DNA from: Bryobacterales bacterium
GTDB lineage: Bacteria > Acidobacteriota > Terriglobia > Bryobacterales > Bryobacteraceae
Assembly (NCBI GenBank): GCA_003164035.1
Contig: PLRS01000110.1
Span: 1-64,000 of the forward strand
Length of the DNA stretch: 64,000 nucleotides
Direction of reading: 5' to 3'
Position numbers and translations under genes: made by a program. Under the pieces are notes generated by a model that saw only the letters and a program-made list of their open reading frames with translations, was not told where the DNA came from and made no database searches. Numbering within the stretch: the first letter of the stretch is position 1; each line of letters begins with the position of its first letter. Shown here piece after piece: positions 12,209 to 56,979 of this stretch.

Positions 12209-12428
12209 TGGGTAGATCTTGAGGCGTCCTTCGGCGCAGCCTCCGATATGCTCCCGATAGCTGGGCATGCCGGAAACCTGCCGCTTGACCGCATCGCGTC
12301 GCATGCGAAGGGTTGCGCCGGTGGCAGGTCCGTCCTCCGTCGACCACTCGGAAGCCTGCCCATACCACTGCAATGCAACTCAGGGCAGACCACGAAACGC
12401 GATGGTCTGCCCCACGGAGCCATGGAGG

Positions 12429-35355: not shown

Positions 35356-35452
35356 ATGATCGGTAGCATGCGAAGATCACCTGAAACATCATTCCACGCT
35401 CTCGTTCTATCGGTCACGCTCGTGATTATGGCGATGATCATGAGGTTTCTGA

Positions 35453-36064: not shown

Positions 36065-36103
36065 GTTTTTCGTTCGGGCGCGTCGTCCGACGGTCTTGAT
36101 AGA

Positions 36104-36985: not shown

Positions 36986-37379
36986 TCTCTTGCCGCTCCT
37001 TGGGTGACCCGTGGGGATGCACCACTCAAGAGCCGGGATTCGATGCGATTGTCCGCAAGTCTTCTTCGGAGGTTGCGGAAGCTGAATCCGGTAGCTTCCC
37101 TAAACACCAGCAAGGATTCGAACCTGAAAGCAAAGGCTTTAACGTCTTCTCGCGAGCGTGCTTCAATGGAATCAATACGTTGTGATCTGGCTCCCCATCG
37201 TGGACACATTTCGAACTTTGGTGGCATGCCCACCGTCGGGGATCATTGCGGTTTTCCAACAGATTCAGACCCAAGCGAGTGCATGAGCACACGGGTGGCA
37301 CTGCGCAACGCCGGTTGTCGCCGCCCACTGCCGTCCTGAACAGGTGCTAATATCTGAGACTGGGTGTTGCGTTCTCAAT
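36986..37379. other. gene-free stretch with the third motif copy
   Basis: No gene is supported. A copy of the dispersed motif (ggctccccatcgtggacaca-tttcgaact) lies at about 37187-37216. The promoter of the downstream three-gene operon must lie here or just inside. Confidence 0.55.
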
Positions 37380-40564: not shown

Positions 40565-43308
40565 CGTTCTCATGGGCGGGCGCGGCAATCGCGATCCGAA
40601 GGCTCGTCGCGCAGGATGAGGCGAGACCGCCGCATAGCCGGCGCCTCGACGACGGCCAACGCGCATCTCTGAGTTGGATAGCGCGACGTATCCAACAAGA
40701 CGGCGTAGTGCTGGCCGATGAGGTCGGCACCGGAAAGACACGCATCGCCTGTGCGGTGGTGCACGCGGTGTTCGAAGCAGGAGGACGCGCAGCCGTCGTT
40801 GTGCCGCACGGCCTGATGCACCAGTGGGCCGCCGAGTCGCGCGAGTTGAGCGTCGAGGACCCGATACCGATACCCAAGCGCCTCACTACGTTCACCGAGT
40901 TCCTCCGCGAGTCGACTGAGGCTGCTTGGAAGGACTGCAGCCCGCAACCGGATCAGCCCGAATGGTGGTTGATTTCGCACGGGTTTCGAGCCCCGCTGAT
41001 TCGCAGCAACTCTCAACCCTGGCGCGCGGCGTTACCAGCCCTCGTCAAGTTGCATCTCGCGTCACGTGCCGAACGCGAGGACGGACGCACCCAGTTGGGT
41101 AAACTTCAGAGCGATATCGACAACACAAGTCCGTCGTGGCGGGATTGGAACGGCATGGTGCGCATCGCCAGAGATGTCGCCCCGCGCATTCGCGGCCGTC
41201 GCGACTTACGCAAGAAGATCGGCCTTCTTCCACCGTTTAAGGTTCAGAGCGTAAACAATGACGACCTACTCTCAGCATCCGCAAGCGATGGTGAGGCGCG
41301 GCAGGTGACCGAGGAGATCCTTGGTCTCTGGCTCGGTGAATTCGACCTCATCGTGATCGACGAGGCACACAAAGGCCGTGTCGAGGTGGACATCGATAGC
41401 GCCGCTCTCGGAGCGATTGAGGGCTCTGTGCTGGCGCGACTCGTCGACGTGGTACTGAGGCAGCCCGAAGGCGGGCGGCGGCTCTGTCTCACTGCCACCC
41501 CGATGGAATTGGAGCTGGAGCAATGGCTCAGCCTGATCAAGCGCGCACGCCGCGGGCTCGACCTTGAGCGCGGACAAGCGGTTGTTGAGAGACTGCGCGA
41601 TGCGGCGCATTGGGCGAGTATTGTTCCAGACGCATCGAACCGGCTCGATGAGTTGTGCGCAGCTGCCCGGGACTTCACGCGGGAACTCTCCCCCTACGTG
41701 ACGCGGCGCCGACGGGACGAGGACCCGCTCATCAAGAAGTTCCGTGCCGCCGCGCAACGGCCAGAAGAGCTTCCACATCCGCATCGCAATCTGGAGAAGG
41801 TGAAGATCGGATGGACGCAAACCGTGGGTAGCAACTCGGCGTGGCTCGATGTGCTTTTCGCTACCGAGTGCATGAGCCAGAGCGCTCGTGGCCTATCACT
41901 GGCGGACACCAAGGGCTGGCCTGACGCCGTGCGGGACGCCTACACCAAGCTTCCGGCGGGTCACGTCAGTATCGAATTGATGGAGACCAGCGACCCGATC
42001 CCTGTTCCCAAACCAGACGCCGGAGACGACGACGCCAGAAGAGCTAAGATCGCAAAACTCGCCCGCGTCGCATACTGGTACCACCAGTTCGGCGCTGCAC
42101 GTAGCAGAGTTGTCGGGGAGTTCGAGCATGTTCCAGGCGTCGAGCTTAATCCCGATGCTGAGCACCCGCGAATCCTCGCCGCGGTGAAGGAGATCGAGAA
42201 GTGGACCGCGCAGCAGGAAAAAGTGCTGGTATTCGGGGTGTTTCTGCAGCCGCTTCGTCTACTCTGCGACGTGCTCAACGTTCGGCACGCGCTACGCGCG
42301 GCCGACGCAGAGCGGCCTATCGCCTACGCGGTGCACAAGGACAAAGCGTTGCTCGGGATTGCAGTTCGCCAAGTTCATCGGTTGCGTGATGAAGGTGTGC
42401 TGATAGGTCGGCTGGTGGCGGGAAAGTACACGAAAATCAAGCACGCCTTGCGGGACAGCCACACGGCGTATGACAAGCTGCGCCGACAGGTCCGTGAGGG
42501 AGCCAAGAAGCCGATCGAGGCATGGTTCGCTGACCGAACCATTCTGGGCGGTGCATCGGCGGATGGAAAGCTCGAACGGGCGATCCACGACCACCTAGTC
42601 ACATTTTTGCTTGACGACCTCCTTGCCACCAATTTGAAATCCGACGAGCTGACTCCGGCATGGATCGAGGAGCGGGCGGCAGGTTTTCTTGAGCGCCACG
42701 TACGCCCGGTCCTCGGCGAATCTGGCGACGACGATGGAGGAGATGAGGAGCAGGCTGAGTTACACCAAGAGCTGCGAAGAACCTTCCTGGAAGACGAAGC
42801 CAATACTGGGCGCCAGAGTCTTCATGCACGACTCCTGCAGGGTTCAACCCGATGGGAGACTCGGCGGTATCTGCAGGCGGCTTTCAACAGACGCGACGCG
42901 TCTCCCTGGGTGCTAGTCGCCCAGAGCCAGGTTGGTAGGGAGGGCCTCAACCTCCACGAGTCTTGTCGGGTCGTCGTGCAATTCCACGCCGAGTGGAACC
43001 CCGCCGTCCTCGAACAACAGATCGGTCGCGTTGACCGCAAGGGGAGCCTCTGGGAGGAATGCGCGCAGAAGTGGCGAGAGGGAGGAACGGAGCCTCCCCC
43101 GTTTGTGGAAGTTCGGCAACTGGTCTTCGAGGGCACCTACGATGCGTTCCAGTGGGACCGCGTAATGGCGCGACAGCACGTTTTTGACGCCAGCTTGTTC
43201 GGCGCGCTTCTGCCAGTGAGCGCTTGGGATCGCGTGCCGATCAACCAGAGGAAGAAGCTCATCGACGCGGCCCCCTCCTTCAGCCCCGATGGCTCTTCGC
43301 GAAAATAA
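40561..43308 (+). CDS. SNF2-like superfamily 2 helicase
   Basis: 915 residues from the ATG at 40561, which overlaps the PLD gene stop. Motif I 'VLADEVGTGKTRIA' (K59), motif II D267-E-A-H, motif III 'LCLTATPMELE', and the C-terminal lobe with 'QSQVGREGLNLHESCRVVVQ' and 'EQQIGRVDRKG' (motifs V/VI). A large insertion separates the lobes. Helicases of this type pair with PLD proteins in DISARM (DrmD/DrmC) and Dpd systems, but neither a methylase nor DrmA/B or DpdA is present here. Confidence 0.88.
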   Translation: MTFSWAGAAIAIRRLVAQDEARPPHSRRLDDGQRASLSWIARRIQQDGVVLADEVGTGKTRIACAVVHAVFEAGGRAAVVVPHGLMHQWAAESRELSVEDPIPIPKRLTTFTEFLRESTEAAWKDCSPQPDQPEWWLISHGFRAPLIRSNSQPWRAALPALVKLHLASRAEREDGRTQLGKLQSDIDNTSPSWRDWNGMVRIARDVAPRIRGRRDLRKKIGLLPPFKVQSVNNDDLLSASASDGEARQVTEEILGLWLGEFDLIVIDEAHKGRVEVDIDSAALGAIEGSVLARLVDVVLRQPEGGRRLCLTATPMELELEQWLSLIKRARRGLDLERGQAVVERLRDAAHWASIVPDASNRLDELCAAARDFTRELSPYVTRRRRDEDPLIKKFRAAAQRPEELPHPHRNLEKVKIGWTQTVGSNSAWLDVLFATECMSQSARGLSLADTKGWPDAVRDAYTKLPAGHVSIELMETSDPIPVPKPDAGDDDARRAKIAKLARVAYWYHQFGAARSRVVGEFEHVPGVELNPDAEHPRILAAVKEIEKWTAQQEKVLVFGVFLQPLRLLCDVLNVRHALRAADAERPIAYAVHKDKALLGIAVRQVHRLRDEGVLIGRLVAGKYTKIKHALRDSHTAYDKLRRQVREGAKKPIEAWFADRTILGGASADGKLERAIHDHLVTFLLDDLLATNLKSDELTPAWIEERAAGFLERHVRPVLGESGDDDGGDEEQAELHQELRRTFLEDEANTGRQSLHARLLQGSTRWETRRYLQAAFNRRDASPWVLVAQSQVGREGLNLHESCRVVVQFHAEWNPAVLEQQIGRVDRKGSLWEECAQKWREGGTEPPPFVEVRQLVFEGTYDAFQWDRVMARQHVFDASLFGALLPVSAWDRVPINQRKKLIDAAPSFSPDGSSRK

Positions 43309-43312
43309 GCGC

Positions 43313-44845
43313 TCAGCCGTCGCGGCGAGGATTTGGTCCGCAAGCCCCTGGCGCTCTTAGCTTGCCCGTACGCAGTACTTCCAAAATCTTGGCCATCGCC
43401 AACGTATCCTGTCGACAATAAACGAGGAGTGCAGCCTTGAGACGTCGGCGTTCCTCCAAGTCCAGATTGCCCCGAACCATCTGGTCCCAAGCCAACCCCG
43501 CCTCGCCGCCGTGCGACACCTCCATGCCTTCGTAGCTGTACCCCGGCACCAGCGCCGGAAGAACGGCTTTCAACGAAAATGACCCTTGAAACTGCGGGTG
43601 ATATACGTGTTTCTTCACGAACGGCCAGAGGTCCCACAGGCGAGCCTGAATTCTTGCAATTTTGCCGGCATGTTCCGGCATCCACTTGGCCAGATCACTA
43701 AGGCGCTGCGATTCAAAGCCGGCGTTGTAGACGACAGTCAGCCCGCGCTTGCCCAGCGCCTCGCTCAACGAATCAAGGAAAGCACGACGAGGATCCTCTT
43801 CGTCCTCAGCAAGGAACTCAAAATGTTCCAATTCGCTATCGACGGACATCTGCCGGTGAATCGACCATTGAAAAGGGATGTGCGAGTATGGCCACATTCC
43901 ATCGAACCGCGGAATCGCTGGGTAAAGCGTTTCGAAGTCCATGAAATATAGCGGATACTTCAACCGGGACAATTCTCTGGCGAGGGTGTCGCTTACCCAC
44001 GGATGTCCAGTTTTGACGGAAGTCCAAACCCGGATCTGGTTCTCTGTGAGGGAGAACCCCTCGGGGATTTCGTGGATGAGCGTTATTCCCTGACCCAGCA
44101 GTTCCGCTTGTGTCTTGTCGCTCAGCCTCGGCAGGAACGAGATGTGGTGATCGGGCACAGGCGCATTGCAGCAAGCATAGAACTCGCAAGCTACCGGTTC
44201 GGAGCAGTGCCGGCCCGGCGCTATTTCGGGCGGGTGTTCCAGCGCCAGCGCCTTCCGCTGGGACCGCAGCAACTTCGGGACTTCGGCGTCAAGCTTCCGG
44301 ATCTGCCCCGTCAGGTTCCGAATGGCGAAGAGTCCCGCTGGGTCATACCGCCGCCCATCATAAACGTAGTCGCGGTTGAGGTGCATGAGGCAACAGGAGG
44401 AGAGATCGAGACCACAGCCCCTCAGAACATGAGCCTGGATCGCGACATCGTAGAGGTGGTATTCCTTCACGTCGACGGAAGACTTCACCTCGAGCAGCCG
44501 CCATCGACTCGCCGGGCGCCGCTGGAGAATATCCACGCGGACCAAAACCCCTTGATGCTGGAATGTTGCTTCAAATATTGCCGGAACAGAGGAATCGTCC
44601 AACAAGCAGGCCGTCTGCGCCAAGGCGCCATCCGATCCGTGTTCAAAGCCAACGAACACGCCGCCCGGAAAACGGGATTGAGCGAGCAGGCCAACTTCAT
44701 TCCCTTGCTGAAGCCGAGCTTGCTGACTCTCGTCCGGCTGCCCAGCGAGTTCGGGCTCATAAATCTGGTAGTAGAGCCGCTTCAAGCACTGGACACCTGC
44801 CACGAACTTGGATTTTGAGAGGCGTACTGGAGCGGGCGCAATCAT
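43313..44845 (-). CDS. Cas4-like/RecB nuclease fused to DUF2779 exonuclease-like domain
   Basis: About 510 residues from the ATG at 44845. N-terminal Cas4/Dna2-type nuclease: a cysteine at C20 ('VAGVQCLKRLYYQ'), PD-(D/E)xK residues in 'LVRVDILQRR' and 'LLEVKSSVDVKEY', and three cysteines near residue 214 ('HCSEPVACEFYACC') that could complete an iron-sulfur cluster. The C-terminal DUF2779 part begins with an RNase H-like 'LYFMDFETLYPAIPRFDG' and ends 'LVYCRQDTLAMAKILEVL'. Convergent with the helicase operon, stops five bases apart. Known members are scattered in defence islands. Confidence 0.87.
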   Translation of the reverse strand: MIAPAPVRLSKSKFVAGVQCLKRLYYQIYEPELAGQPDESQQARLQQGNEVGLLAQSRFPGGVFVGFEHGSDGALAQTACLLDDSSVPAIFEATFQHQGVLVRVDILQRRPASRWRLLEVKSSVDVKEYHLYDVAIQAHVLRGCGLDLSSCCLMHLNRDYVYDGRRYDPAGLFAIRNLTGQIRKLDAEVPKLLRSQRKALALEHPPEIAPGRHCSEPVACEFYACCNAPVPDHHISFLPRLSDKTQAELLGQGITLIHEIPEGFSLTENQIRVWTSVKTGHPWVSDTLARELSRLKYPLYFMDFETLYPAIPRFDGMWPYSHIPFQWSIHRQMSVDSELEHFEFLAEDEEDPRRAFLDSLSEALGKRGLTVVYNAGFESQRLSDLAKWMPEHAGKIARIQARLWDLWPFVKKHVYHPQFQGSFSLKAVLPALVPGYSYEGMEVSHGGEAGLAWDQMVRGNLDLEERRRLKAALLVYCRQDTLAMAKILEVLRTGKLRAPGACGPNPRRDG

Positions 44846-45074
44846 GCGGTTTGTGTGATGCGATCCAACTACTTCTTCTACGATGGCACAAAACAACGTG
44901 ATAGAGCGTCCGCTCTCTTGTGTTTCCGCGCAGTTTTCGGCGCCTCCGTGGCCCCGCGCGCGCAACTCGCCGGTTCCGAAACGTGGAAGAGAGAAATCTC
45001 GGATTCTCCTGATTGTTGACTGGGCGGAGGAATTCCAGCATGAGCTCGCCCGAGAGGAGAAGATCCCGCTTTGC

Positions 45075-45614
45075 TCATTGCTGCCTGGTCCGTTTCTTCG
45101 GCTTGGATTTCTTCAAGGTATCTGAGGCGAGTTTGTCGGCCAAGGCGCGAGACGCCATTGCATCGGCGTAGGGTCCGGAGCAACTCATTTTGCTTTGAAT
45201 TGCTCTTCCGATTTCTGTCTTAGCGGGCGTGCGTTTAGCTGATTTCGACCTGAGCCGGCTCTGCTCGGCTTTCGCGGCCCTACAGACGTTCTTGATTGTT
45301 TCGACTCCCAACTCACATTGGGATTCACGAGTCGCGTCTGTGATCGCATATTCCGGGGACAGCTCCTTTGCTAATGCTTTCCGGAGGCTTGGATAGCCTC
45401 TTTTGAGGATTTCGGCTGCGGTCTCTTCGCCCATTTCAATCAAGCGGAAGGTACCGCTGTCCGTGAGAGCGAAGTCGAGCAGGCATGACTGCATCTCCCA
45501 GACTTCGGCAGGCTCGTCCGCTATTTCGTCGAGCTGAACATACGCGTCGGTTTCATCCACCGCGCTAACAATCGAGAAGCTACCGTCGGGCCACCGCGCA
45601 AAGAATACCGGCAT
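45075..45614 (-). CDS. hypothetical protein
   Basis: 179 residues from the ATG at 45614 (GGAGAG just upstream). N-terminal half is a compact domain ('MPVFFARWPDGSFSIVSAVD', 'YVQLDEIADEPAEVWEMQSC'); C-terminal half is lysine/arginine-rich and ends KKSKPKKRTRQQ. Not recognised. It lies between the DUF2779 gene and the mobile element. Confidence 0.65.
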   Translation of the reverse strand: MPVFFARWPDGSFSIVSAVDETDAYVQLDEIADEPAEVWEMQSCLLDFALTDSGTFRLIEMGEETAAEILKRGYPSLRKALAKELSPEYAITDATRESQCELGVETIKNVCRAAKAEQSRLRSKSAKRTPAKTEIGRAIQSKMSCSGPYADAMASRALADKLASDTLKKSKPKKRTRQQ

Positions 45615-45929
45615 AAACTCTCCTACACAGTCGTTTATAGCAGAAGTAGCAGAAGCAGAAAGGGTTGCGCGGGGCAGCGGGCGGACGTGGGCTTTATTCG
45701 CGCGTTCTGGGACACGTCCCGGAGCGCGTGCCAGGAGTAGCCAGCGTCCGCTGGGTTCATCCATCTCCCACCCACAGCCGGTCTGGCGGCTTCTTCCCTT
45801 CTTGGGCCTTGGTGCGCGACACGGGTGCCAGGGACGCGTCGTGCCGCCTGGGTGGTATGTCGGGTGGCCGGACGCCGCCTCGGGCGGCCCCGAATGGCGT
45901 TCGGAACCCCTACGATCAACAAGGAGTGG
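45615..45929. other. region without a secure gene at the presumed element edge
   Basis: Several frames are open here, and one (45635-45922, minus) starts close to the end of the preceding small gene, but its composition is arginine-rich and it ends in a run of leucines encoded by ctt/ctg repeats. I could not support a gene. This is where the left edge of the integrated element probably lies. Confidence 0.4.
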
Positions 45930-46151
45930 TTATCGAATCCCGCCCATGAACTCGCGATTCGTGAGTTCCGCGCGCGGCGGCGCCACTTTCGGGATGTCCG
46001 GCACGGTCACCCGGAACCGGACCCGGCCGCGCCCCGCAGACAGATCGGATCGGCGCCAGCCAGCATTGATCGGGTGGCGGGGATCGCTGAGATCATACTG
46101 CGGCTGACGTCGCTCAGCCTGACGAAAGAGATCTTTCAAAATGGTCAACAC
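45930..46151 (-). CDS. small unknown protein of the mobile element
   Basis: 73 residues from a GTG at 46151 with a good GGAGG about 9 bases before it. Sequence 'VLTILKDLFRQAERRQPQYD', then 'DPRHPINAGWRRSDLSAGRG'. Not recognised. The quality of the ribosome-binding site is the main support. Confidence 0.55.
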   Translation of the reverse strand: MLTILKDLFRQAERRQPQYDLSDPRHPINAGWRRSDLSAGRGRVRFRVTVPDIPKVAPPRAELTNREFMGGIR

Positions 46152-46255
46152 TGTTCACCCTCCAGGGCGGGTGCGAGGCAGGAGGGGCCTCGGGACCGCC
46201 CTCCCGGCCACTGCGAAGAAGGACAGCGGCCCGGCCCCAACATTTTGCTCAGCGC

Positions 46256-46504
46256 TCAACGCTGGACGATCTGAATACCGGCAGCCCGCAGCGTGTTTAC
46301 CAACACGCGGGCATTGTGCTCGGCCCGGTAGCGCGCGTAGACGTCCGGATCGGCTTCGAGTGCCCGCGCGATGGCCTGTTCCTGTGTAGGTGCAGCGGCA
46401 GCGCCCGGCACATACAACGCCGGAAGGCTGGCACCGCGGAACTTGAGGACCACCGCATCGCGCATGGCCTCGGCTTCAATCTGCTTGAACGTTTTACTTT
46501 CCAC
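46256..46504 (-). CDS. small unknown protein of the mobile element
   Basis: 82 residues from a GTG at 46504, with AAGGAGA 7 bases upstream; the frame extends eight codons further to 46528. 'VESKTFKQIEAEAMRDAVVL' and 'EQAIARALEADPDVYARYRA' suggest a helical protein. No family recognised. Follows the coiled-coil gene by 27 bases. Confidence 0.65.
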   Translation of the reverse strand: MESKTFKQIEAEAMRDAVVLKFRGASLPALYVPGAAAAPTQEQAIARALEADPDVYARYRAEHNARVLVNTLRAAGIQIVQR

Positions 46505-46531
46505 TTCGATTCTCCTTTCGTGATCCAACTG

Positions 46532-47122
46532 CTATGCCAGCGCCGCCAGTTGTTCGGCCAGCGGACGAAGGTGTTCATGACCGCCGACGAACGCCGTCTC
46601 GATGTATGGGCGCATGCCGGTAGCAAGCGTCGCCCGCGTCGTACAGCCCTTGAGCGACCGATGGAATGCTCCACCGGCCAGCCGGTATTCGTTGAGCATG
46701 CCTTCGATGACCTGAAGGTGTTCCGCCACCTGCTCGAAGAGCCCATCCACTGCGGCGGCATGCTGCCGAATGGTGGTGGCCACGGCAGCGCGTCGGGCAA
46801 GCTGGGCTTCCAGCTTCACGCGGTGTTCGGCATCCTGCAGTTTCTTGAGTTCGGCCTGGCCGAGTTCGATTGCCGCGCGGAGCGAATCGGCGCGCCGCTC
46901 CAGTTCCCGTTCTTCCACCTCGAGGGCGACGGCAACATCGGCATCGCCCCCGAAAATCAGTGCGGTGCCAGCAGCCGTGCGCCGCTGACCGCGCTTCTCC
47001 ACGAGCGCCTGCTCGGCACCAGTCGCTTCACGTTCCAGTTCGCCGATCCGCTCGCGCCACTCGGCGACGGTCGAGGGCGTCTGCATCACAGGCTCATCCG
47101 TTCTTGCTTGTTTCGTTCTCAT
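46532..47122 (-). CDS. coiled-coil protein of the mobile element
   Basis: 196 residues from the ATG at 47122 (AAGGAG upstream). Long helices rich in E, A, R and Q ('WRERIGELEREATGAEQALV', 'VEERELERRADSLRAAIELG') predict a coiled coil. It overlaps the end of the TerS-like gene by 29 bases. Its place after a terminase small subunit suggests a scaffolding or packaging accessory role, but that is only positional. Confidence 0.65.
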   Translation of the reverse strand: MRTKQARTDEPVMQTPSTVAEWRERIGELEREATGAEQALVEKRGQRRTAAGTALIFGGDADVAVALEVEERELERRADSLRAAIELGQAELKKLQDAEHRVKLEAQLARRAAVATTIRQHAAAVDGLFEQVAEHLQVIEGMLNEYRLAGGAFHRSLKGCTTRATLATGMRPYIETAFVGGHEHLRPLAEQLAALA

Positions 47123-47600
47123 CTGCACTCTTCTCCTTTTCAAAACTGTCCGACAACATGCTCAACACCGTCCGAATCTCGCCCGAGAGAATGGTCTCCA
47201 TCGCGGCCAAATTCAGCCTGGCCGACATGTTGGCTACCATCTCGCCGGGCATGCCGGTCTCCTCAATGGCGGTGCGGATCTCGGCCGCGACCGCCCCGCA
47301 GCAGCGCGTGGGAATGTTCATGCAGGCGTCGCGGATGCGCCTGGACGCGTTGAAGGCGGCGATCTTCACCTCGGCAGCCGGGAGTAGCTCGCCGGAAAGC
47401 CGCTTGAGCTGCATGTCCGCGAGGCGCGCCTTTGACACCATGTAGATGGTCCGTGCCCGCAGCAGCTTGCTGCCGTCGCCCTCGGGCGCGATGGTGTTGC
47501 GCTCCCACTCGGTGTCGGCCAAGGCGGCATCGATCCGCCCGTCCGGCGAGGTGGAAATGCGGCCTTCGTTGATGGCGCGCTGGACGGCGGAACGGGCCAC
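47094..47600 (-). CDS. terminase small subunit-like protein (Nu1 type)
   Basis: 168 residues from a GTG at 47600. An N-terminal DNA-binding-like part ('ARSAVQRAINEGRISTSPDG') leads to a helical region with 'GELLPAAEVKIAAFNASRRI' and 'CMNIPTRCCGAVAAE', the pattern of phage Nu1-type small terminases ('G.Ll...eV......r.ard.ll.iP.r.a'). In phage satellites this protein redirects helper packaging. A large terminase gene is not visible. Assignment is by eye. Confidence 0.6.
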   Translation of the reverse strand: MARSAVQRAINEGRISTSPDGRIDAALADTEWERNTIAPEGDGSKLLRARTIYMVSKARLADMQLKRLSGELLPAAEVKIAAFNASRRIRDACMNIPTRCCGAVAAEIRTAIEETGMPGEMVANMSARLNLAAMETILSGEIRTVLSMLSDSFEKEKSADENETSKNG

Positions 47601-47658
47601 TCCCCGATGCGCGGTACTTTGCAGAAAGTGCTGTGACGCGCTGTTACGCAGTTACGCA

Positions 47659-50169
47659 TCATTCGCCCGCCCTCAGTCCGATGCCGGTCCAGCCCCGCGT
47701 GGGATCGCCGTCGATGCGCCGCAAAAAGGGCTGGCAACCCTTGGAGCGCAGGCGGTCGGCGAAGGCATTGCGGCCGAGCATGTAGCGCTCGCCGTTCTGC
47801 TTGGCCCATTCCTCGTACTCCCGCCAGAGCCGCGCCGCACTGATCCAGGCGTCGGCGTGGAGCACGCAGCAATCGGAGACGAAATCCTTGATCGGGTCCA
47901 TGTCGCGGCGGTACTCGTCGGTGGCCTCGCGGATGACCTCGGGCACGTGGAGCCGTTCCTCGCGCCAGCGCAGCGCGCCTTCCACGGCCCAGGCGAGGAT
48001 GGCCGGTCCAGAGATGGCGGGATTGCGCAGCGTTGCTTTGACAAATGGCTGGCGCTTCTCCGGCGGGATAGTCTGATCGAACGGGATGCGCAGGATGCGC
48101 CGCCACATGGCGGTGTCGTCGTCCTTGACGCGGGGCGCGTGGTTGGCCGCCAGCCACAGCTTGAATACCGGGGTGAACTCGAAGGACTCGTGGTACAGGA
48201 AGCGCGCCCGCACGGTGTCGCCGCCGGTGAGCAGCTTGACCAGGCCCTCAGCGAGCTTCTTGCCTTGGTCCACCTCGATGGAGACGACGAAGCGGCGGCC
48301 GGCCAGTTCGGCGATGTCGTTGCGGACCGCGCCCGCCTCGCGGCGTTGGACAAACGATTCGAAGTCGGCGGTCTTGGCGTAGTCGCCGAGGGTGGCCTTG
48401 AGAGCTTCCAGGAAGGTGCTTTTGCCGGAGGCCGCCGGACCGTGCACGAAGAACAGGACCTCCTCGTCGGTGGCGCCGGTGATGGAGTAGCCGGCGGCTG
48501 CTTGCAGGAAGTTCAGCAGGTCGCGGTTACCGCCGGTGGCGTCGTGGAGCGTCTTTTCCCACAACTCGGAGCGGGCCGCGGCGTCATAATGCACGGGGCA
48601 CAGGCGGCTGAGCAGGTCTTCGCGGCGGTGGGGGCGCAACTCGCCCGTGGTGAGATCGACGACGCCGTTGAGGCAGTTGAGCAGCCAGGGCGAGGCATCG
48701 AGTTCGGACTGCCGGACGGGGACGCTGGGCTCGCTGCGGGCCAGCATTACCATGGCGTTGATGGCGCTCCTGGACTCGCTGGCGAGAGCGTGTTTCACCA
48801 GTGCCTCGCGCTCATCGGCCTTCAGCTTGGCGGCCGTGCGGTACATCTCTCCGACGGTGCGCTTGGCCAGCAGTTCGATCCCGCCGGTAGCGTCGACTTC
48901 CCATCGCGCTCCAGACCACAAGAAGACCTTGCCGGATTCGTGGCAGTAACGGAAATCGCTACCGTGGCGGGAGACCAGCCGGCGGGCGTTGCCGAGGTCG
49001 GTGAAGTTGATGGCGCTCTCGACGGCCTGGCTAAGCACTTCTTCGACGGTGCGGGCTCGGGCTTCGCGGCGTTCCTTGCGGCGGTCGCGGTCTTCCTGTT
49101 TGCGTTCGGCCTGCCACTGTTCCTGCGCGACATACTCGGGGTCCAGGTGGCGGCGCACATCTTTCCAGCCTTTGCCGTTGCATCCGTTGTGCTGGCACTT
49201 GAAGCCGAGCACGCCGTCTTTACTCTCGAAGATGGCGGCGCTACCGCCGGTGTGGCTATTGTCGAAAGGGCAGGCGGCAAGCGTCCAGCGGCGGCCACCG
49301 CGATATGCGGATGGGCACTTCTCGACGACGATGCCGACCTTGGCCATCCACGCCTCCATGTCGAACTCGAACATCTTCATGGTGGCTTCGGTCGCAGTGG
49401 CGCGGCGGGTTTCAGCAGCCTCGGCTGCCAGTTGTTCGAGCAGTTCGATGGAAACCGGTGTGACGGACTCGGGCACCTCGAGCATGCGGGAAAGCCGGTA
49501 GGGGCGGTCGGGCGTGTGGTCGCCTTTGCGGGCGAACGTGCCGTAGGCTTTCGAGATGCGGGCTGCGTTGAACACGGTCTCGTCGATGTGGACCGTATCG
49601 CTGGAGAATTTACCGGACAGCGCCTTGAGAGCCCGGCTGATCAGGCTGGTGGAGGCGTCGTTGTTCGCGAGATCGGGCAGGCGGCAGAGGAGATGGAAGC
49701 CGTTGCCGGAAAGGCTCAATACCGGCTCGGGCCACTGGCGGCTGCGCAGATGTTCACGGACCTTTTCGGCCACACCTAGGGCGGCCTGGAGTTCGGAACG
49801 GCTGCTGGAGATGCCGGCGGGACGGACGGGATCGCAGTCCACTAGCATCCAGCGGCGCTCCAATATGTCGGAATCGCTGGTGGTAGTCTCTGCGAAGGCC
49901 TTCACGCGATTGCTGGCGCGAGCGAGCAGATCGGGCTTGACCGGGTTCAGGGTGACGTAGACTCCCGGCCCTTTTCCATCCATCTCGCGGATCGCCTCGA
50001 CCAGCGCGGCCGGATCGTTGAAGTAGCCCGAGATGGTGCGGTTCCGCCCCGCCTTGGGAACGCGCAGTTCTACCACGTCGCCGGGACGGAACATGATGGC
50101 GACAGCCTGCGCGGCTTCTTTGTGCGCCTTCACACCGCTGTTTTCCGTGGGGACCGGCGCCGCGCTCAT
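47659..50169 (-). CDS. D5/P4-type primase-helicase
   Basis: About 836 residues from the ATG at 50169. The N-terminal part resembles a virus-type primase-polymerase ('RRWMLVDCDPVRP', 'VLSLSGNGFHLLCRLP', 'HIDETVFNAARISKAYGTFA'), followed by a zinc-like segment ('CQHNGCNGKGW') and the D5_N plus SF3 helicase: Walker A 'VHGPAASGKST' near residue 578 and 'WLAANHAPRV'. It ends with a winged-helix-like domain. Such proteins start replication of phages, satellites and plasmids. Overlaps the upstream acidic gene by four bases. Confidence 0.9.
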   Translation of the reverse strand: MSAAPVPTENSGVKAHKEAAQAVAIMFRPGDVVELRVPKAGRNRTISGYFNDPAALVEAIREMDGKGPGVYVTLNPVKPDLLARASNRVKAFAETTTSDSDILERRWMLVDCDPVRPAGISSSRSELQAALGVAEKVREHLRSRQWPEPVLSLSGNGFHLLCRLPDLANNDASTSLISRALKALSGKFSSDTVHIDETVFNAARISKAYGTFARKGDHTPDRPYRLSRMLEVPESVTPVSIELLEQLAAEAAETRRATATEATMKMFEFDMEAWMAKVGIVVEKCPSAYRGGRRWTLAACPFDNSHTGGSAAIFESKDGVLGFKCQHNGCNGKGWKDVRRHLDPEYVAQEQWQAERKQEDRDRRKERREARARTVEEVLSQAVESAINFTDLGNARRLVSRHGSDFRYCHESGKVFLWSGARWEVDATGGIELLAKRTVGEMYRTAAKLKADEREALVKHALASESRSAINAMVMLARSEPSVPVRQSELDASPWLLNCLNGVVDLTTGELRPHRREDLLSRLCPVHYDAAARSELWEKTLHDATGGNRDLLNFLQAAAGYSITGATDEEVLFFVHGPAASGKSTFLEALKATLGDYAKTADFESFVQRREAGAVRNDIAELAGRRFVVSIEVDQGKKLAEGLVKLLTGGDTVRARFLYHESFEFTPVFKLWLAANHAPRVKDDDTAMWRRILRIPFDQTIPPEKRQPFVKATLRNPAISGPAILAWAVEGALRWREERLHVPEVIREATDEYRRDMDPIKDFVSDCCVLHADAWISAARLWREYEEWAKQNGERYMLGRNAFADRLRSKGCQPFLRRIDGDPTRGWTGIGLRAGE

Positions 50170-50372
50170 CCAAACGTCTCCATGTTGCGGTTCGTCCACA
50201 ACTCGAAGATGTCTTCGAAGTCATCGGCATCGTCGTCATCGTCGGCAGGCGCATCGGCTTCGATGTGTTGGGTTTGCTGTTCGGTATCGGGAACGTGCTG
50301 CCCTTCCTCAGCCGGATTCTCGGCTTTCTCTTCTCGGTACCGCCGCCAGGCTTCAAGACTGTAGATGCTCAC
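50166..50372 (-). CDS. small acidic protein of the mobile element
   Basis: 68 residues from a GTG at 50372, with GGAGG 6 bases upstream. 'VSIYSLEAWRRYREEKAENP' then a strongly acidic stretch ('DDDDDADDFEDIFELW'). Its stop overlaps the primase start and its own start overlaps the excisionase-like gene. Acidic phage proteins of this size often mimic DNA or bind host regulators; nothing more can be said. Confidence 0.7.
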   Translation of the reverse strand: MSIYSLEAWRRYREEKAENPAEEGQHVPDTEQQTQHIEADAPADDDDDADDFEDIFELWTNRNMETFG

Positions 50373-50590
50373 AGCGAACCTCCAGTCCTGCCGTGAACCA
50401 CCACCGGAGAGAGCAATTCCGAGACGGAAACCAGGTAACAGCGGCGCGTGCCCCACGCCCGCAGCTTGCCGCTGCGGATGTCGCGCCAGATGGTACGCTC
50501 CGTCTTTCGGGCGATACTGGCTCCCTCCTTCACGTTGACCAAATCACTGGGGATGGTCGGAACCACTTCCGCGAAGTACCTGCGCTTCAT
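50369..50590 (-). CDS. excisionase/HTH-like DNA-binding protein
   Basis: 73 residues. 'VKEGASIARKTERTIWRDIR' and 'SGKLRAWGTRRCYLVSVSEL' form a MerR/Xis-like helix-turn-helix with wing, the kind used by AlpA-type regulators and excisionases. It overlaps neighbours on both sides by four bases, so it is part of the primase operon. Confidence 0.72.
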   Translation of the reverse strand: MKRRYFAEVVPTIPSDLVNVKEGASIARKTERTIWRDIRSGKLRAWGTRRCYLVSVSELLSPVVVHGRTGGSL

Positions 50591-50775
50591 GCAGCCTCCC
50601 TGTCTGCTTCGGGTTGAACTTGGCGGGTATCTGCCGCTGCGGACCAGCCCTGGAGTGTCGTGAAGAAACCGGTGACGTTCTCAACCATTTGGCGCGCGTC
50701 TTCGGCCGTCAACTGGCGCGAAGAGCGCGGCTGCCAAAACCGGATCGTTTCTTCTAACAGCGGCAACCGCACCAT
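50587..50775 (-). CDS. small protein, first gene of the leftward operon
   Basis: 62 residues from the ATG at 50775. 'LLEETIRFWQPRSSRQLTAE' and 'MVENVTGFFTTLQGW'. The phrase 'sRqLTaEDArqMveNvtGFf.tL..W' is a helical motif I have seen named only as unknown in phage-like elements. The four-base overlap with the next gene supports it. Confidence 0.65.
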   Translation of the reverse strand: MVRLPLLEETIRFWQPRSSRQLTAEDARQMVENVTGFFTTLQGWSAAADTRQVQPEADREAA

Positions 50776-50834
50776 ACTGACCTTCAGTGTGGGCTATTGA
50801 CTCTAACGTAGAAAGCTGTAGACTATAAATTGAG
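50776..50834 (+). promoter_or_regulatory. divergent control region of the element
   Basis: The 59 bases between the leftward and rightward operons are A+T-rich for this genome. TATAAA at 50824-50829 ends five bases before the ATG at 50835, and no Shine-Dalgarno is present there, which fits a leaderless transcript. TTGACT at 50797-50802 is a possible -35 but is spaced 21 bases away. Confidence 0.4.
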
Positions 50835-51854
50835 ATGTCAACACAGGATTGGGACCTCGGCGGATTGACCGATATCAATGGCAACCTGGGCAAACCCGTG
50901 CCGTCCGGCCAGGTTCTCGTGCCGGGAAAGATCGAGTTGGATGGCGATGCCATTCGCTGGGAATTAGGGGGACCGGCGCGATGGCAGGAAGTTTCGCGAT
51001 CCACCCTGAACGAGTTCGTGAAACTGTGGGATCTGGATTCGGCGGCCATCCTGAGGTTTGCGAAGAAGTGGGGCGTCCTGGCGATGCAGCCCATTCGTGC
51101 GAAGGAGACGCCGGTCTACCGGCCGTGCGGCGAGTCCATGACGGAGGGAGCCGATCCGGTCAGCGCCTGGAATTACTTCTCCCGCCGCGCATGCGCGGTC
51201 CTCAACATCGCGGCTGCGCTGAGGCAGGAAAAGCTTGGAGATCTCGCCGACTGGGGAATCATCGCTTCCATCGAAGACACGCCGGAATCATACAAGGTAG
51301 CTATTGAACAGCACCGGTACGGCATGGGGTGGTATCTGTTCCCGAAGCCCATGCCGAACCGCAATCCGGTGGACCAGGGCAGGCAGGTGATCGCGACCGA
51401 AGTCGGCTCGTGGTTGAGCTTCTGGCGGGCCCGGCGTATGCAGGGCCTGTCGGACTTCGCGGTGGAGTGGAATCCGAACAGCGCACGATGGGAGCTACAG
51501 GTCGATTATCACGGCTTCCTGTTCGCGGCGCTGGGTCTGCAACTCGGCCTGAGCCTCGCTGGGGCAGAGAGCCTCTACACATGTTCCGGGTGCGGCTTCC
51601 CATATGTTCGGGAACTGAAGCGGCCGAAACCGGGGACGGCGAACTACTGCCCGAAGTGCAGCCAGAAAGGAGTTGCCCAGCGGCGGGCCGTGGATGCCTA
51701 CCGCGAAAAGAAAGCCGAGGCGATCCGGCTCGAGGCGAAGGGCACACCTGTGGACGAGATCGCGCGGAAGCTGAGCACGCCCCTGTCCCGGATCAGGAAG
51801 TGGCTGGGCAAAGAAAGCCCGACGGGAAAGAAGCAGCGGAAACGTGGGAGGTGA
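50835..51854 (+). CDS. zinc-ribbon protein next to the recombinase
   Basis: 339 residues. The N-terminal 240 are not recognised. Then comes a zinc ribbon C250-x2-C253 ... C272-x2-C275 ('YTCSGCGFPY', 'NYCPKCSQ') and a helix-turn-helix-like tail ('RLEAKGTPVDEIARKLSTPL', 'SRIRKWLG'). Proteins of this layout precede serine recombinases in several elements and may regulate them. The next gene begins two bases after its stop. Confidence 0.72.
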   Translation: MSTQDWDLGGLTDINGNLGKPVPSGQVLVPGKIELDGDAIRWELGGPARWQEVSRSTLNEFVKLWDLDSAAILRFAKKWGVLAMQPIRAKETPVYRPCGESMTEGADPVSAWNYFSRRACAVLNIAAALRQEKLGDLADWGIIASIEDTPESYKVAIEQHRYGMGWYLFPKPMPNRNPVDQGRQVIATEVGSWLSFWRARRMQGLSDFAVEWNPNSARWELQVDYHGFLFAALGLQLGLSLAGAESLYTCSGCGFPYVRELKRPKPGTANYCPKCSQKGVAQRRAVDAYREKKAEAIRLEAKGTPVDEIARKLSTPLSRIRKWLGKESPTGKKQRKRGR

Positions 51855-51855
51855 A

Positions 51856-53634
51856 ATGAAGAAAAGATCAGACGTCCAAATCGATACTGGATCGGCCGCC
51901 AGCGTTTGCCATCCTGCCGTGATTTACGCCCGCGTCAGCAGCAAGGATCAGGAGAAGGAGGGCTACTCGATTCCGTCCCAACTGGAACTGCTGCGCGGGT
52001 ATGCCGGCGCTCACGGCTTCGACGTGTTCAAGGAGTTCACCGACGTGGAGACGGCGAAGGCGGTGGGCCGCACCAGCTTCGGCGAAATGATCGCTCTTCT
52101 GGAGAAGTCAAAGACGTGCCGGACCGTCCTGGTGGAGAAGACCGACCGCCTCTACCGAAATCTGAAGGACTGGGTGACCATCGAAGACCTCGGGCTTGAG
52201 ATCCACTTTGTGAAGGAGAACGTCATCCTGGCACCTGACTCCCGCTCCTCGGAGAAGTTCATGCACGGCATCAAAGTGCTGATGGCGAAGAACTACATCG
52301 ACAATCTGTCTGAGGAGACGCGGAAGGGCATGCTGGAGAAGGCACGGCAGGGGATCTGGCCGTCCTTCGCGCCGCTGGGCTACATCAACGTCGACGGCAC
52401 GAACGGCAAGCGGACCATTATCCCCGACAGCAATCTGGCACCGGTCATCACCAGGATGTTCGAGCAGTACGCCACCGGCAAATTCTCGCTGAAGCAGATG
52501 GCCAAGACAGCGCGCGCAGACGGACTGGCTTATCGGAAGAGCGGTGAGATGGTGCCCACCTCCACGGTGCACAAGATCCTGCGCAACCGGATCTACTCCG
52601 GCGACTTCGATTTTGACGGCACGATGTACCACGGAGCCTACGAGCCGGTTGTCTCCCACGAGCTATGGGATCAGGTCCAGGCGATCCTCGACGGGCGCGG
52701 TGCCAAGAAGACCCGCAAGACGAAAGAGCAGTTTGCGTTCAGCGGCCTGATCACCTGCGGGCACTGCGGATGCGCCATGGTGGGCGAGATCAAGAAAGGC
52801 CGCTACATCTACTACCACTGCACCGGCTTCAAGGGAAAGTGCCCGGAGCCATACACGCGCGAGGAAGTGCTGGAGGAGAGGTTCACCGGCTTGCTGAAGG
52901 GCATCGCGTTCGGCGACGAGACGCTGTCTTGGGTGCGGCAGGCGCTCCGGGAAAGCCACCGCGACGAACGCCAGTTCCACGACGACGCCATTGCCAAGCT
53001 CCAGCGCGAACATCGCCGCCTCCAGGACCGCATCGACGCCATGTACGAGGACAAACTGGACGGCAGGATCGCCAACGACTTCTTCGACACCAAGGCCGCT
53101 GAGATGCGAGCGGCGCAGGCGGCCATAATTCGCGACTTGGGGGCGCACCAGACCGCCAACCGCAGCTATATCGAGGAAGGCGTCCAACTCCTGGAACTGG
53201 CGCACAACGCGCACGCACTGTTCGAGAGTCAGCCCGCAACGGCAAAACGCAAACTCCTGGATTTTGTACTGTCGAACTGCACCTGGAAAGGCGGCGAACT
53301 GACCGCGAAATATCGGCAACCCTTTGACGTGTTGGCAGTTGCGGTCGCGTCGGAACAACAGCGAGTGGGAGGGGGAATGGCGGATACGGCCAGAATTGAT
53401 ATCTGGCTCCCCAAAAACATCGGTATAAAACGACCTCTCCTGTACTTTCTTCATGTTGCAGTCAGGCGGTTTGAGTATTCGAGTCCTCAGAATGGACCGA
53501 CCTATTCCGCCGCGAGATCCGGCACGGAGGGCCGGAGCCCACATCTCATCCAGGAATATGGCGGGCGTCCTCCGGGAAAGGCGGCTTCCCCTCGTTCCAA
53601 TGGAATCAGGGCTGCCCATCATTGCCTGCGCTAG
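51856..53634 (+). CDS. large serine recombinase (integrase)
   Basis: 592 residues from the ATG at 51856, with GGAGGTGAA directly upstream. Catalytic domain 'AVIYARVSSKDQEKEGYS' with nucleophile S28 and 'VEKTDRLYRNLKDW'; recombinase domain ('GYINVDGTNGKRTIIPDSNL', 'VHKILRNRIYSGDF'); zinc ribbon ('ITCGHCGCAMVGE' ... 'YYHCTGFKGKC'); and a coiled coil ('KLQREHRRLQDRIDAMYEDK'). The last 75 or so residues after 'RIDIWLPKNIG' have no family look and may be host sequence read through at the attachment site. Confidence 0.93.
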   Translation: MKKRSDVQIDTGSAASVCHPAVIYARVSSKDQEKEGYSIPSQLELLRGYAGAHGFDVFKEFTDVETAKAVGRTSFGEMIALLEKSKTCRTVLVEKTDRLYRNLKDWVTIEDLGLEIHFVKENVILAPDSRSSEKFMHGIKVLMAKNYIDNLSEETRKGMLEKARQGIWPSFAPLGYINVDGTNGKRTIIPDSNLAPVITRMFEQYATGKFSLKQMAKTARADGLAYRKSGEMVPTSTVHKILRNRIYSGDFDFDGTMYHGAYEPVVSHELWDQVQAILDGRGAKKTRKTKEQFAFSGLITCGHCGCAMVGEIKKGRYIYYHCTGFKGKCPEPYTREEVLEERFTGLLKGIAFGDETLSWVRQALRESHRDERQFHDDAIAKLQREHRRLQDRIDAMYEDKLDGRIANDFFDTKAAEMRAAQAAIIRDLGAHQTANRSYIEEGVQLLELAHNAHALFESQPATAKRKLLDFVLSNCTWKGGELTAKYRQPFDVLAVAVASEQQRVGGGMADTARIDIWLPKNIGIKRPLLYFLHVAVRRFEYSSPQNGPTYSAARSGTEGRSPHLIQEYGGRPPGKAASPRSNGIRAAHHCLR

Positions 53635-53646
53635 GTTCCAAGACTG

Positions 53647-54276
53647 CTACTCAATCGCAAAACAGTACATCCGATAACGGCCCAGGTTCTTCAGATTGAC
53701 CTTTGAGGTTTGATACCGTTGATTAGTGTCTTCATGAACCTCATCGAGGATTGACATAAAGGCATATTCGCCAGGTAACAGCGGCAGCACCTTAGGCGTG
53801 ATTTTGGCAGTATGGTCGTCATACTGGCTAACGTCCACAGTCAGCAAGGGCGAACTCTCCTTGTTTCGCGTGTAGACCACGGTCGTCTTGACGTCCATAG
53901 TCACGTACTGCCTGGCCTTGCCCTTTTTTACGACGAGAAGCCGAAGCGCTTCAGTTGGAGCAAACCCAGCAAGAGTCCCATCCGACCAAGAATTCTCTGA
54001 GTGGATGAGGAACCCCTGAACGTCGCCCGCCTTCAGCCGCACTGAGGACTGGTCCCCAGGCAATTCAACCAGCATAGTTGAGCTAGCAACGCCAAACCCG
54101 GCTTTTAGGGGGTTAGATCCTTTTGCCTGGGAGGTCCCAACGGACGATTCCAGAGGAATCTCGCCGCGGGCCGAAATGGCAGAGATGCTGGTTATCTTGA
54201 TCTGCTGAGCGTGGAGCACGAGGGCCAGTGTCAACGAAGCACCCGCCCGCAACAGAAAACCCGTCGAAAGTTTCAC
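53647..54276 (-). CDS. exported protein of unknown function
   Basis: 209 residues from a GTG at 54276 (AGGAGA upstream). Signal peptide ('TGFLLRAGASLTLALVLHAQ') and a beta-rich body ('GDVQGFLIHSENSWSDGTLA', 'KITPKVLPLLPGEYAFMSIL'). Not recognised, though such proteins are common in Solibacter-type genomes. It flanks the mobile element; its stop lies 13 bases from the recombinase stop. Confidence 0.75.
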   Translation of the reverse strand: MKLSTGFLLRAGASLTLALVLHAQQIKITSISAISARGEIPLESSVGTSQAKGSNPLKAGFGVASSTMLVELPGDQSSVRLKAGDVQGFLIHSENSWSDGTLAGFAPTEALRLLVVKKGKARQYVTMDVKTTVVYTRNKESSPLLTVDVSQYDDHTAKITPKVLPLLPGEYAFMSILDEVHEDTNQRYQTSKVNLKNLGRYRMYCFAIE

Positions 54277-54456: not shown

Positions 54457-56979
54457 TCATGGGACAAGAACGATTCTGCGAATGCGCAGATTGCTGGAGT
54501 CCAGCACATACAGCGCCCCATCAGGCCCGATGGCCAGATTCGTCGGACAGCTCAGCTGCGCTTGATTGGGGGCCCCATTGTCACCGGAGAAACCTGCCAC
54601 ACCAGTGCCGGCGACCGGGATCATCGTCAGCGTGCCCAATGAGATCATGCTGATCTGCTGATTCAAACAGTCACTAAAGAACACGTTGCCGGTAGCGTCC
54701 GTGGCGATTCCAGTTGCGAGGCCTATTGCCACCTGTGAAGCCGGCCCTCCGCTCGCAGTAAAACCGTTCGAGCCGTTGCCAGCGAATGTCGAGATGGTGC
54801 CGTTCTTGTCTACCTCGCGGATTCGGTAGTTCAATTCGTCCGCGATGTACAGAAGGCTGGCGCTGCCGGCGACCCCAGATGGCGCATACAAGCAGGCTTG
54901 CGGCGCCGGGCCTCCGTCGCCTCGAAATCCACCGCCGGTACATGACGGGTCGCCCGCAATGGTGGTGATATTCCCATTGGTGTCGATCCGCCTCACGGTC
55001 AAAGCCGTAACCACGAAAACGTTTCCCTGGCTGTCCACCGAAACGTTCTTCAACTCCCGGAATGCCGCGCTCGTGGCAGGGCCGCCGTCGCCACTGTCAG
55101 CGTATTGCCCATTGCCTGCAAAGGTCGTAATCGTGCCGTGTATATCCACCTTCCGGATCCTGGCGTTCGAATAGTCTGCTATGTAGATGTTTCCAGCTTG
55201 ATCCACGGCTACGCCCAGTGGGGAATGCAGCTGCGCGGATGTTGCGGGACCGCCATCGCCGCTGAAGCCGGCAGTGCCATTTCCTGCAACGACGGTGACT
55301 GTGCCTGAGGTTGAAATCCGCTTAATCGTGTTGTTGTCGCCGTAGTAAACGTTGCGAGCGGAATCCACGGCCAGTCCTTGGGCAAGAGCGCTCAGCCCGG
55401 AACCCACAGTGCCTATCCCAGACGCGGCGGGTGCCACGAAATGGACAACCCCGCTCCAGCTTAGCCCGGTGTGACCGTTGTCATCGTTCCCGGTGAGCTG
55501 CCAAGTTGCATCCCACGGCGGATTGCAGCCGCAGGTTGCTATGAAATTTCCCAGCAATTGCCCCTTCGCAGCCAACCGGGTCGACCCAAACCAGCTTGCG
55601 ATCGAACTCGTGTAGTCGATGCCATTCCAAATCAGTTTTGTGAACGTCACACCGACGCCGCCGTTCTCCTGCAAGGCCACCGAATAATACCACTTGCCGT
55701 CGGGCGATTGATTCACTGTACTCGGTGTGAACGTGTACTGCACGTTCGCCGTGCCTGTCGTTGTGCCCGATCCTGAACCAATCGCAAGATTCACTGGTTG
55801 GCTCATGACGCCATTGAAATTGATTACGAGCGGCAGCGAGGAGCCAGATGGCAGAGAGCTGGGAAGTTGAATATTGAACTGCGCCAAGCCGATTCCGCCC
55901 GGCGTTAGGCCAGCAAAGCCCACCGTCGCATTCACACCTCCGATCGTGGCCGTGGGTGTCACCTTGGCGGTAGCCGGGGGGCTCGTTGGACTAGGGGCGT
56001 CGGTTGCAGGGACCACAGTAAGATCGCCGATGCCCGTGCCGTAAACGACGACGTATTCTCCCGCAACGGCAGGATCGGCCGGAGTCACCAATTGGTTATC
56101 AGTGGCGTGGACAATGATCGGATCGAACACTCCGGGCGAACGCTGATACGTGAACACGGACGGCGCATAGGGCGTCAGCGTGACGTTCATCGGCGAACTC
56201 GCAACACCGCTGTGTGTGACTACAACCGAAGCTTGGCCCTGAAGAGGAGACTCAAAGGGAACCTGGAAATTGATCTGGCTGGAGTCGGCATACCAGAGCG
56301 GTGCGCTCACCCCATTGACGGCGACCTGCGTGTTGCCAAGGGTTCGCGGCAGAGGCGCGGAAGTCGCCGGTGACGGGCCATCGGCCAAGGATGTGCCGTA
56401 CAATGACGCCACCGAACCACGGGCGATTCCCGGACTGGATCCGGCTGCGCTCACAATACCGCCGCTACTAATCGAGGGATTCCCCTGGGCTGGCGTCACC
56501 GTGAAGATCACCGGTATCGTCACGGCGGGGCTTGAAGCTGCCGCCAAAATCATCACGTTGGCGTTGTACGTGCCTGTTGACATGCCAGCCGCCGATGCGG
56601 TCACGTTAACCGCTCCCGAATTCGTTCCGCTTGCAGGCGTCACCGAGAGCCAAGTCGCTGTCGCAATGGCGTTCCACTGGAGGGTGCCACCACCAGCATT
56701 GGTCACCGCAATTGCTTGGCTGCCCGACGCCTGCCCAGTCGCAGCGGAGAGCGTGATACCGCTCTTGTCCACACCGACCTTCGGTAACGGTATTGACGGG
56801 TTCGAGATTACCTGCGAAAGGCGATTGCCCGCGGAGTCGTAGGTATACGAAACAGTTGTGCCGTCAGGATATGTAACCCGAGCCAAGCGGTTCAGCGCAT
56901 CATAGTTGTAGCCCACTTGTGCCGCCAAGTGGATCGTCAGAGCCACTGCCACGACGCACAGCTTGCACGATACACCCAT
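54457..56979 (-). CDS. secreted YD-repeat / BACON-like / TIGR03437-like / NHL-repeat protein
   Basis: 840 residues from the ATG at 56979. Signal peptide ('LCVVAVALTIHLAAQ'), then two YD repeats of RHS type ('VGYNYDALNRLARVTYPDGT', 'VSYTYDSAGNRLSQV'), a BACON-like Ig domain ('ATATWLSVTPASGTNSGAVN'), the Solibacter-type domain ('PGIARGSVASLYGTSLADGP', 'YADSSQINFQVPFE', 'YVVVYGTGIGDLT'), and an NHL propeller ('GTAGFSGDGGPATSAQLHSP' repeated four times). Its ATG shares a base with the RHS stop (TGATG), so it is translated after the RHS gene. Likely an extracellular partner. Confidence 0.88.
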   Translation of the reverse strand: MGVSCKLCVVAVALTIHLAAQVGYNYDALNRLARVTYPDGTTVSYTYDSAGNRLSQVISNPSIPLPKVGVDKSGITLSAATGQASGSQAIAVTNAGGGTLQWNAIATATWLSVTPASGTNSGAVNVTASAAGMSTGTYNANVMILAAASSPAVTIPVIFTVTPAQGNPSISSGGIVSAAGSSPGIARGSVASLYGTSLADGPSPATSAPLPRTLGNTQVAVNGVSAPLWYADSSQINFQVPFESPLQGQASVVVTHSGVASSPMNVTLTPYAPSVFTYQRSPGVFDPIIVHATDNQLVTPADPAVAGEYVVVYGTGIGDLTVVPATDAPSPTSPPATAKVTPTATIGGVNATVGFAGLTPGGIGLAQFNIQLPSSLPSGSSLPLVINFNGVMSQPVNLAIGSGSGTTTGTANVQYTFTPSTVNQSPDGKWYYSVALQENGGVGVTFTKLIWNGIDYTSSIASWFGSTRLAAKGQLLGNFIATCGCNPPWDATWQLTGNDDNGHTGLSWSGVVHFVAPAASGIGTVGSGLSALAQGLAVDSARNVYYGDNNTIKRISTSGTVTVVAGNGTAGFSGDGGPATSAQLHSPLGVAVDQAGNIYIADYSNARIRKVDIHGTITTFAGNGQYADSGDGGPATSAAFRELKNVSVDSQGNVFVVTALTVRRIDTNGNITTIAGDPSCTGGGFRGDGGPAPQACLYAPSGVAGSASLLYIADELNYRIREVDKNGTISTFAGNGSNGFTASGGPASQVAIGLATGIATDATGNVFFSDCLNQQISMISLGTLTMIPVAGTGVAGFSGDNGAPNQAQLSCPTNLAIGPDGALYVLDSSNLRIRRIVLVP

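Follow-up and report, generated by a model that had tools for sequence, protein, structure and literature searches.

Which kind of mobile element carries a large serine recombinase, a P4-type primase and a putative terminase small subunit (TerS) together in a genome of the Acidobacteriota? This question is raised by a locus within positions 1 to 64,000 of contig PLRS01000110.1 from a Bryobacterales bacterium (this 64-kb stretch is hereafter called the window). Most of the known phage satellites come from Proteobacteria, Firmicutes and Actinobacteria, and in the literature searched no description of satellites from Acidobacteriota was found. Here, we propose that an integrated satellite resembling the phage-inducible chromosomal islands (PICIs) is the best explanation of this locus, with a probability of roughly 70%. 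The element spans positions 37,187 to 53,413, i.e., 16.2 kb including about 8 kb of cargo, and not the less than 8 kb (45930-53634) that a preliminary description of the sequence had delimited. Between its ends neither Pfam, PHROG and NCBIfam profiles nor a survey of open reading frames (ORFs) revealed capsid, portal, tail or lysis genes, and the lack of such genes already reported for the shorter unit holds for the re-delimited one too. Thus, the element has the general features of a satellite, namely a discrete unit with integrase and replication genes and without virion structural genes.

The ends are firm because a direct repeat coincides with the end of homology and with a displaced tail of the integrase gene both here and in a sister element from another genus of the same family (genome G020, contig C181; the genome of the window is termed G000, other relatives' genomes are G226, G080 and G067, phage contigs from IMG/VR are G261 and G262, and contigs are numbered with C). 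The right attachment core ATCTGGCTCCCCA (53401-53413, + strand) has its only other exact copy within the window in the left core at 37,185 (37185-37197, +). DNA similarity between the window and the sister stops at 53,415, therefore the last approximately 74 codons of the integrase ORF (53416-53634, +) are flanking DNA that is read through outside of the element. The sister has the same layout: its core GGGGAGCCAAATC stands at 12,269 and recurs at about 26,582, 14.3 kb away. Just inside the left end the two elements resemble one another over roughly 100 bases, which are read in frame with the core's TGG; in the window (37188-37286, +) they are translated to WLPIVDTFRTLVACPPSGIIAVFQQIQTQASA followed by a stop codon (WLPIVDTFRTL...QASA), in G020 to WLPVVDTFRTL...GAA, again followed by a stop. 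Evidently, this translation represents the missing C-terminus of the integrase, i.e., its last 32 codons. As the tail is in frame with the core, the phage-type attachment site (attP) is located inside the integrase gene, the last codons of which would be exchanged on integration, and circularisation would restore the 3' end. The displaced tail can serve as a sequence tag for finding elements of this kind.

With these ends at hand it can be asked whether two separate things are lying side by side, a short integrase-primase unit (about 46-53.4 kb) and an unrelated defence island, the core at 37,187 being left by another insertion. Attachment-like tails do occur alone and in arrays, and a degenerate one is located at 35,015, but no further tail is present between 37,188 and 53,413, the sister repeats the two-ended layout with different cargo, and a 13-bp direct repeat has a chance probability of about 2.5% for a 40-nt anchor in the window sequence. 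Such a composite is therefore considered unlikely. Since the window contains no tRNA gene and a native tRNA-Gln of G000 is found on contig C132, the insertion occurred at a non-tRNA site, and the same is true for the element of G020. The left flank shows a weak similarity to sequence beside the C132 tRNA-Gln (about 70% over 103 bp, E 0.04). A search for the empty site via the right-flank gene (53647-54276) yielded no useful orthologue.

The element-encoded part of the integrase (51856-53415, +) comprises Resolvase, Recombinase and zinc-ribbon domains and matches phrog_95 with E 1.8e-78, in line with the large serine recombinase originally proposed. Family members at E 1e-100 or better were detected in 21 of 257 genomes of the order. 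At 12 of 23 loci the integrase gene extends into a complete tRNA-Gln gene (anticodon TTG in 11 of these), several other loci end in partial tRNA-Gln sequence, and the same junction occurs in the phage contigs G261 and G262. The family core TGGCTCCCC corresponds to the 3' end of the tRNA. Judged from these junctions, the 3' end of tRNA-Gln is the target of this integrase family, which phages and satellites have in common. As regards the attachment site of its own that marks a PICI, window and G020 both possess precise 13-bp repeats, but tRNA-Gln as the site of the family is used by phages too. The preliminary description had considered the serine integrase itself as the unusual trait, which has to be revised since satellites with serine integrases are already known, namely the PICI-like element (PLE) of Vibrio cholerae (PMC6002521) and a mycobacterial candidate PICI (PMC10654092). 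The serine-integrase PICIs treated in the latter work do not reside at tRNA genes (PMC10654092), and in the literature consulted a tRNA target is atypical; the uncommon trait here is a serine integrase family that is aimed at a tRNA gene.

The gene set next to the integrase is that of a PICI in several respects. Integrase (94% identity), zinc-ribbon (85%), 62-aa (87%) and helix-turn-helix (HTH, 73%) proteins are closely matched in the G020 sister, whose primase is 61% identical in its C-terminal half, and these four front genes follow the same order in the units of G020 and G226. The zinc-ribbon/HTH protein (50835-51854, +), transcribed divergently from the replication operon, is present in three satellites (59% identity in G226) and absent from the phage collection. 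The 62-aa protein (50587-50775, -) is found in satellites (44% in G226) as well as in related phages (45-58%). It is followed by a putative regulator or excisionase (50369-50590, -; PF12728, E 9e-5, the sister copy being above the Pfam cut-off) and by an acidic small protein of 68 aa (50166-50372, -), for which the start at 50372 within a 96-aa ORF is most likely. The four-base ATGA/GTGA overlaps described before were found at 50587-50590, 50369-50372 and 50166-50169 and link the genes for the 62-aa, HTH and 68-aa proteins and the primase, the 68-aa gene having a GTGA overlap with its upstream neighbour. Of the proposed AlpA-type regulator the HTH_17 match and an AlpA/Cox-like character could be retained, while its identity as AlpA is not proven. 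Comparison of the HTH protein and of TerS with solved structures by sequence gave nothing meaningful. The P4-family D5 primase-helicase (47659-50169, -) is well supported (PF08706, E 1.8e-36; TIGR01613, E 6.6e-84), and zinc-ribbon, primase and coiled-coil genes are all present as initially listed, whereas the 73-aa ORF at 45930-46151 is without coding support as a gene. In the loci L018 and L022 three direct and three inverted iterons flank an AT-rich stretch directly after the primase gene, a layout that fits, as expected, a primase-dependent origin. Of this putative origin the window retains the left part (47616-47662, -; iterons GCGTAAC..). Together, integrase, AlpA/MerR-type regulator, primase-replication gene and origin, the basic set of PICIs, are all represented, with the reservation that the regulator is only HTH_17/Cox-like and that half of the origin is gone in the window.

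Some PICIs also have a terS homologue, and here it is found in both elements. The small terminase gene of the window (47094-47600, -) matches phrog_57 with E 1.7e-19, its relatives adjoin the large subunit gene (terL), and its product is 44% identical over 126 positions to TerS of G261. The copy in G020 is of full length (phrog_57, E 7e-20). The Nu1-like small terminase of the preliminary description is thus sustained by profile and by position before TerL in relatives, but not by its fold, the model being of low confidence, and the first approximately 14 residues are missing in the window. Next to it a coiled-coil protein of 203 aa is encoded (46532-47143, -; ORF and coding score, start perhaps at 47086 or 47122) that has no similarity to the coiled-coil proteins of the sister. 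A second cluster of TerS, coiled-coil and HEAGH-protein genes, in the order of the G020 satellite, was observed elsewhere in G000 (L278, contig C4, 9214-11462) beside a phage tape-measure gene.

The most specific link to phages is c90, a stand-alone gene of 90 aa (46256-46528, -) whose product corresponds to the outermost C-terminal part of the head maturation protease from one group of soil phages, including the protease of G261. Scanning of IMG/VR with this pair gave 70 loci; in those that include the start of the gene, the similarity ends 0-2 residues before the stop codon, in ORFs of mostly 540-680 aa. Relatives of TerS occur on many of the same phage contigs; in cultured phages neither c90 nor the phage protease tail was detected. 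The closest relative of c90 is encoded by the genome of the window itself, in the C40 prophage (about 50%, E 2.8e-17), and a prophage fragment on C162 also encodes a protease with this tail (about 48%). In G261 the genes are arranged as integrase, 62-aa gene, primase, TerS, TerL (phrog_15, E 1.7e-253), portal (phrog_21) and head maturation protease (phrog_53). The resident C40 prophage (19603-41207; L263, L269) has genes of the capsid region and tail, with a portal protein 81% identical to that of G261, and G020 also holds a prophage of this group with TerS, TerL, portal and protease. The mimicked part of the protease would act as a scaffold, by analogy with lambda C/Nu3. For SaPI CpmB and Rcm mimicry of the helper scaffold has been reported (PMC12409344). 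Because of that precedent we propose that c90 competes as a scaffold and would lead to small or blocked capsids. With its sequence mimicry of a helper scaffold/protease, c90 is a candidate scaffold mimic of the CpmB type.

The parallel between the window and G261 in the order of integrase, 62-aa gene, primase, TerS and protease tail could also have arisen by decay of a G261-type prophage in which terL, the portal, capsid and tail genes and most of the protease were lost, and the missing start of TerS and half of the origin would agree with this. Yet the closest relative in G020 is also free of virion genes, possesses an intact TerS and shares the zinc-ribbon gene not found in phages; there the genes are again a stand-alone unit and not part of a prophage or plasmid. 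Their presence within a larger complete prophage or plasmid in relatives had been named as the finding that would speak against a satellite. Moreover, c90 is only 35-51% identical to the phage tails, most of which hardly differ among themselves, and the unrelated coiled-coil gene lies between c90 and TerS. Owing to this divergence and to the gene in between, c90 is probably no recent deletion scar, and decay of a prophage is regarded as rather improbable.

Several observations weigh against the satellite reading. TerS of the window is truncated at its N-terminus, so that the first helix of the HTH is missing from a DNA-binding domain that is complete in the G020 copy, and the latter is of a different subtype. 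Structure models were too poor for a fold search (pLDDT 66 for TerS, 47 for the HTH protein) and remained unused. Downstream of the primase gene, half of the block of iterons is missing; only the first ones are kept, and DNA similarity to L018 ends at 47,616 where TerS begins. At this junction of TerS and origin, damage or an assembly error may have affected the window copy, and since the start of TerS and half of the origin are missing it may be impaired. A motif that is highly conserved about 53-75 bp upstream of phage TerS genes (e.g., L237), CGCGCATGACGATTCATCACTCCGG, is possibly a cos site or a promoter, and 20 of 25 phage loci carry it with no more than one mismatch; it is absent from the satellites of the window and of G020, and no packaging site common to phages and satellites was found. 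A stand-alone c90 was not detected in G020, and c90 could possibly be a relic left by a deletion in a phage. Finally, no recognisable TerL is located beside the portal gene of the C40 prophage, and TerS, TerL and part of a portal gene are found in G000 on a separate contig (C138).

Some of these points would suit a plasmid-like integrative element, or a mobilisable one, which replicates with its P4-type primase and is transferred in another way, with TerS and c90 as accidental passengers. P4-family primases are common on plasmids, a shared cos-like site is lacking, and L018, a 16-kb contig (JAGPEO010000045.1) binned as Phycisphaerae that encodes an 84% identical primase as well as coiled-coil and HEAAH proteins, has no TerS match and may be circular because its ends overlap by 247 bp. 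On the other hand, accidental acquisition would have to explain two separate packaging and morphogenesis genes from a single phage group as well as the TerS of the sister, and profile scans revealed no relaxase, plasmid replication or partition gene in the unit, so that we hold this explanation to be improbable. The satellite reading of the preliminary description is supported with corrections and in part passes the checks proposed there: TerS is identified by profile and synteny with TerL, and a capsid-protease tail gene that matches resident prophages adds new support.

Among known satellites the Gram-negative PICIs of the EcCI type (PMC6092414) are alike in having an integrase, a small AlpA/MerR-like HTH regulator, a primase-replication gene with adjacent origin, TerS, interference genes and accessory genes at one end, and in the absence of virion genes. 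In contrast with them, this element has a serine instead of the usual tyrosine integrase, attP inside the integrase gene and an additional, divergently transcribed zinc-ribbon gene next to the replication operon, and a cos-like site in common with related phages was not found. CpmB and Rcm (PMC12409344) are likewise small mimics of a helper scaffold encoded close to a packaging gene, whereas c90, a predicted mimic, matches the C-terminus of the head protease of a lambda-type phage and not a separate scaffold protein. PLE (PMC6002521) is also a satellite with a large serine recombinase, but it parasitises the lytic phage ICP1, uses a phage-encoded recombination directionality factor and has an unlike gene set and attachment site. 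With P4-like satellites the element shares a P4-family primase-helicase with origin and a Cox/AlpA-like regulator; it differs in encoding TerS, and Psu, Delta and Sid had no match in profile scans of the element, which with neither these genes nor the P4-type gene order does not group with them. The element is best regarded as a satellite of the PICI type, probably partly damaged in this genome, and as a new form marked by its host among the Acidobacteriota, a serine integrase from a tRNA-targeting family and a candidate protease-tail mimic.

If a helper of the G261/C40 phage group became active, the integrase together with a directionality factor (its own HTH protein or one supplied by the helper) would excise the element, which the primase would replicate from the iterons. 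Satellite TerS would then redirect TerL of the helper onto satellite DNA, while c90 would compete with the helper protease/scaffold for capsid protein and thereby alter or block capsid assembly, as with SaPI CpmB. The cargo, i.e., a phospholipase D (PLD)-like protein, an SNF2 helicase and a DUF2779 nuclease, may protect the host. It starts at the left end with a gene (37371-38672, +) lacking any Pfam, PADLOC or NCBIfam match, followed by the PLD/tyrosyl-DNA-phosphodiesterase-like candidate defence gene (38669-40564, +; PF06087, E 1.8e-6, ZacB weak) and the SNF2-type helicase (40507-43308, +; PF00271, PF00176), another defence candidate for which the DrmD/BrxHI profiles are far below the cut-off. 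This row (37371-43308) possibly represents an undescribed defence system, with weak profile matches. The DUF2779/TM0106-type nuclease (43313-44845, -; PF11074, E 1.1e-41) is 84% identical to a protein encoded at the end of this genome's C40 prophage, and a protein of 179 aa (45075-45614, -) is predicted by coding score. To the right of the element (54457-63983) two large RHS/NHL-repeat proteins are encoded, the larger one with long, near-identical internal repeats.

The tail motif of the integrase was detected in 35 of 257 genomes (a control with the reversed pattern gave no hits), and the exact pattern was not found in IMG/VR. On contig C34 of G080 (L106, 15651-27166) eight such tails in one orientation extend over about 11.5 kb and delimit short units that contain toxin-antitoxin pairs alongside further genes. 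Each unit has 1-3 kb and starts with the core and the integrase 3' tail, the neighbouring genes are not conserved in synteny comparison, and no integrase of this family passes the threshold (E 1e-100) in G080. Three copies occur in G067 (L108, C70). The degenerate copy at 35,015, left of the satellite, suggests a separate 2.2-kb cassette (35015-37187, ORFs of 203 and 293 aa) directly adjoining it. It is conceivable, though we put it forward only tentatively, that this integrase family also moves small integrase-less cassettes in trans and piles them up in one orientation to integron-like arrays. Such arrays bounded by the attachment tail of an integrase may be more novel than the satellite itself. 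The latter offers defined ends, a related element from a second genus, candidate helper prophages within its own genome and one specific, testable gene for interference with capsid formation.

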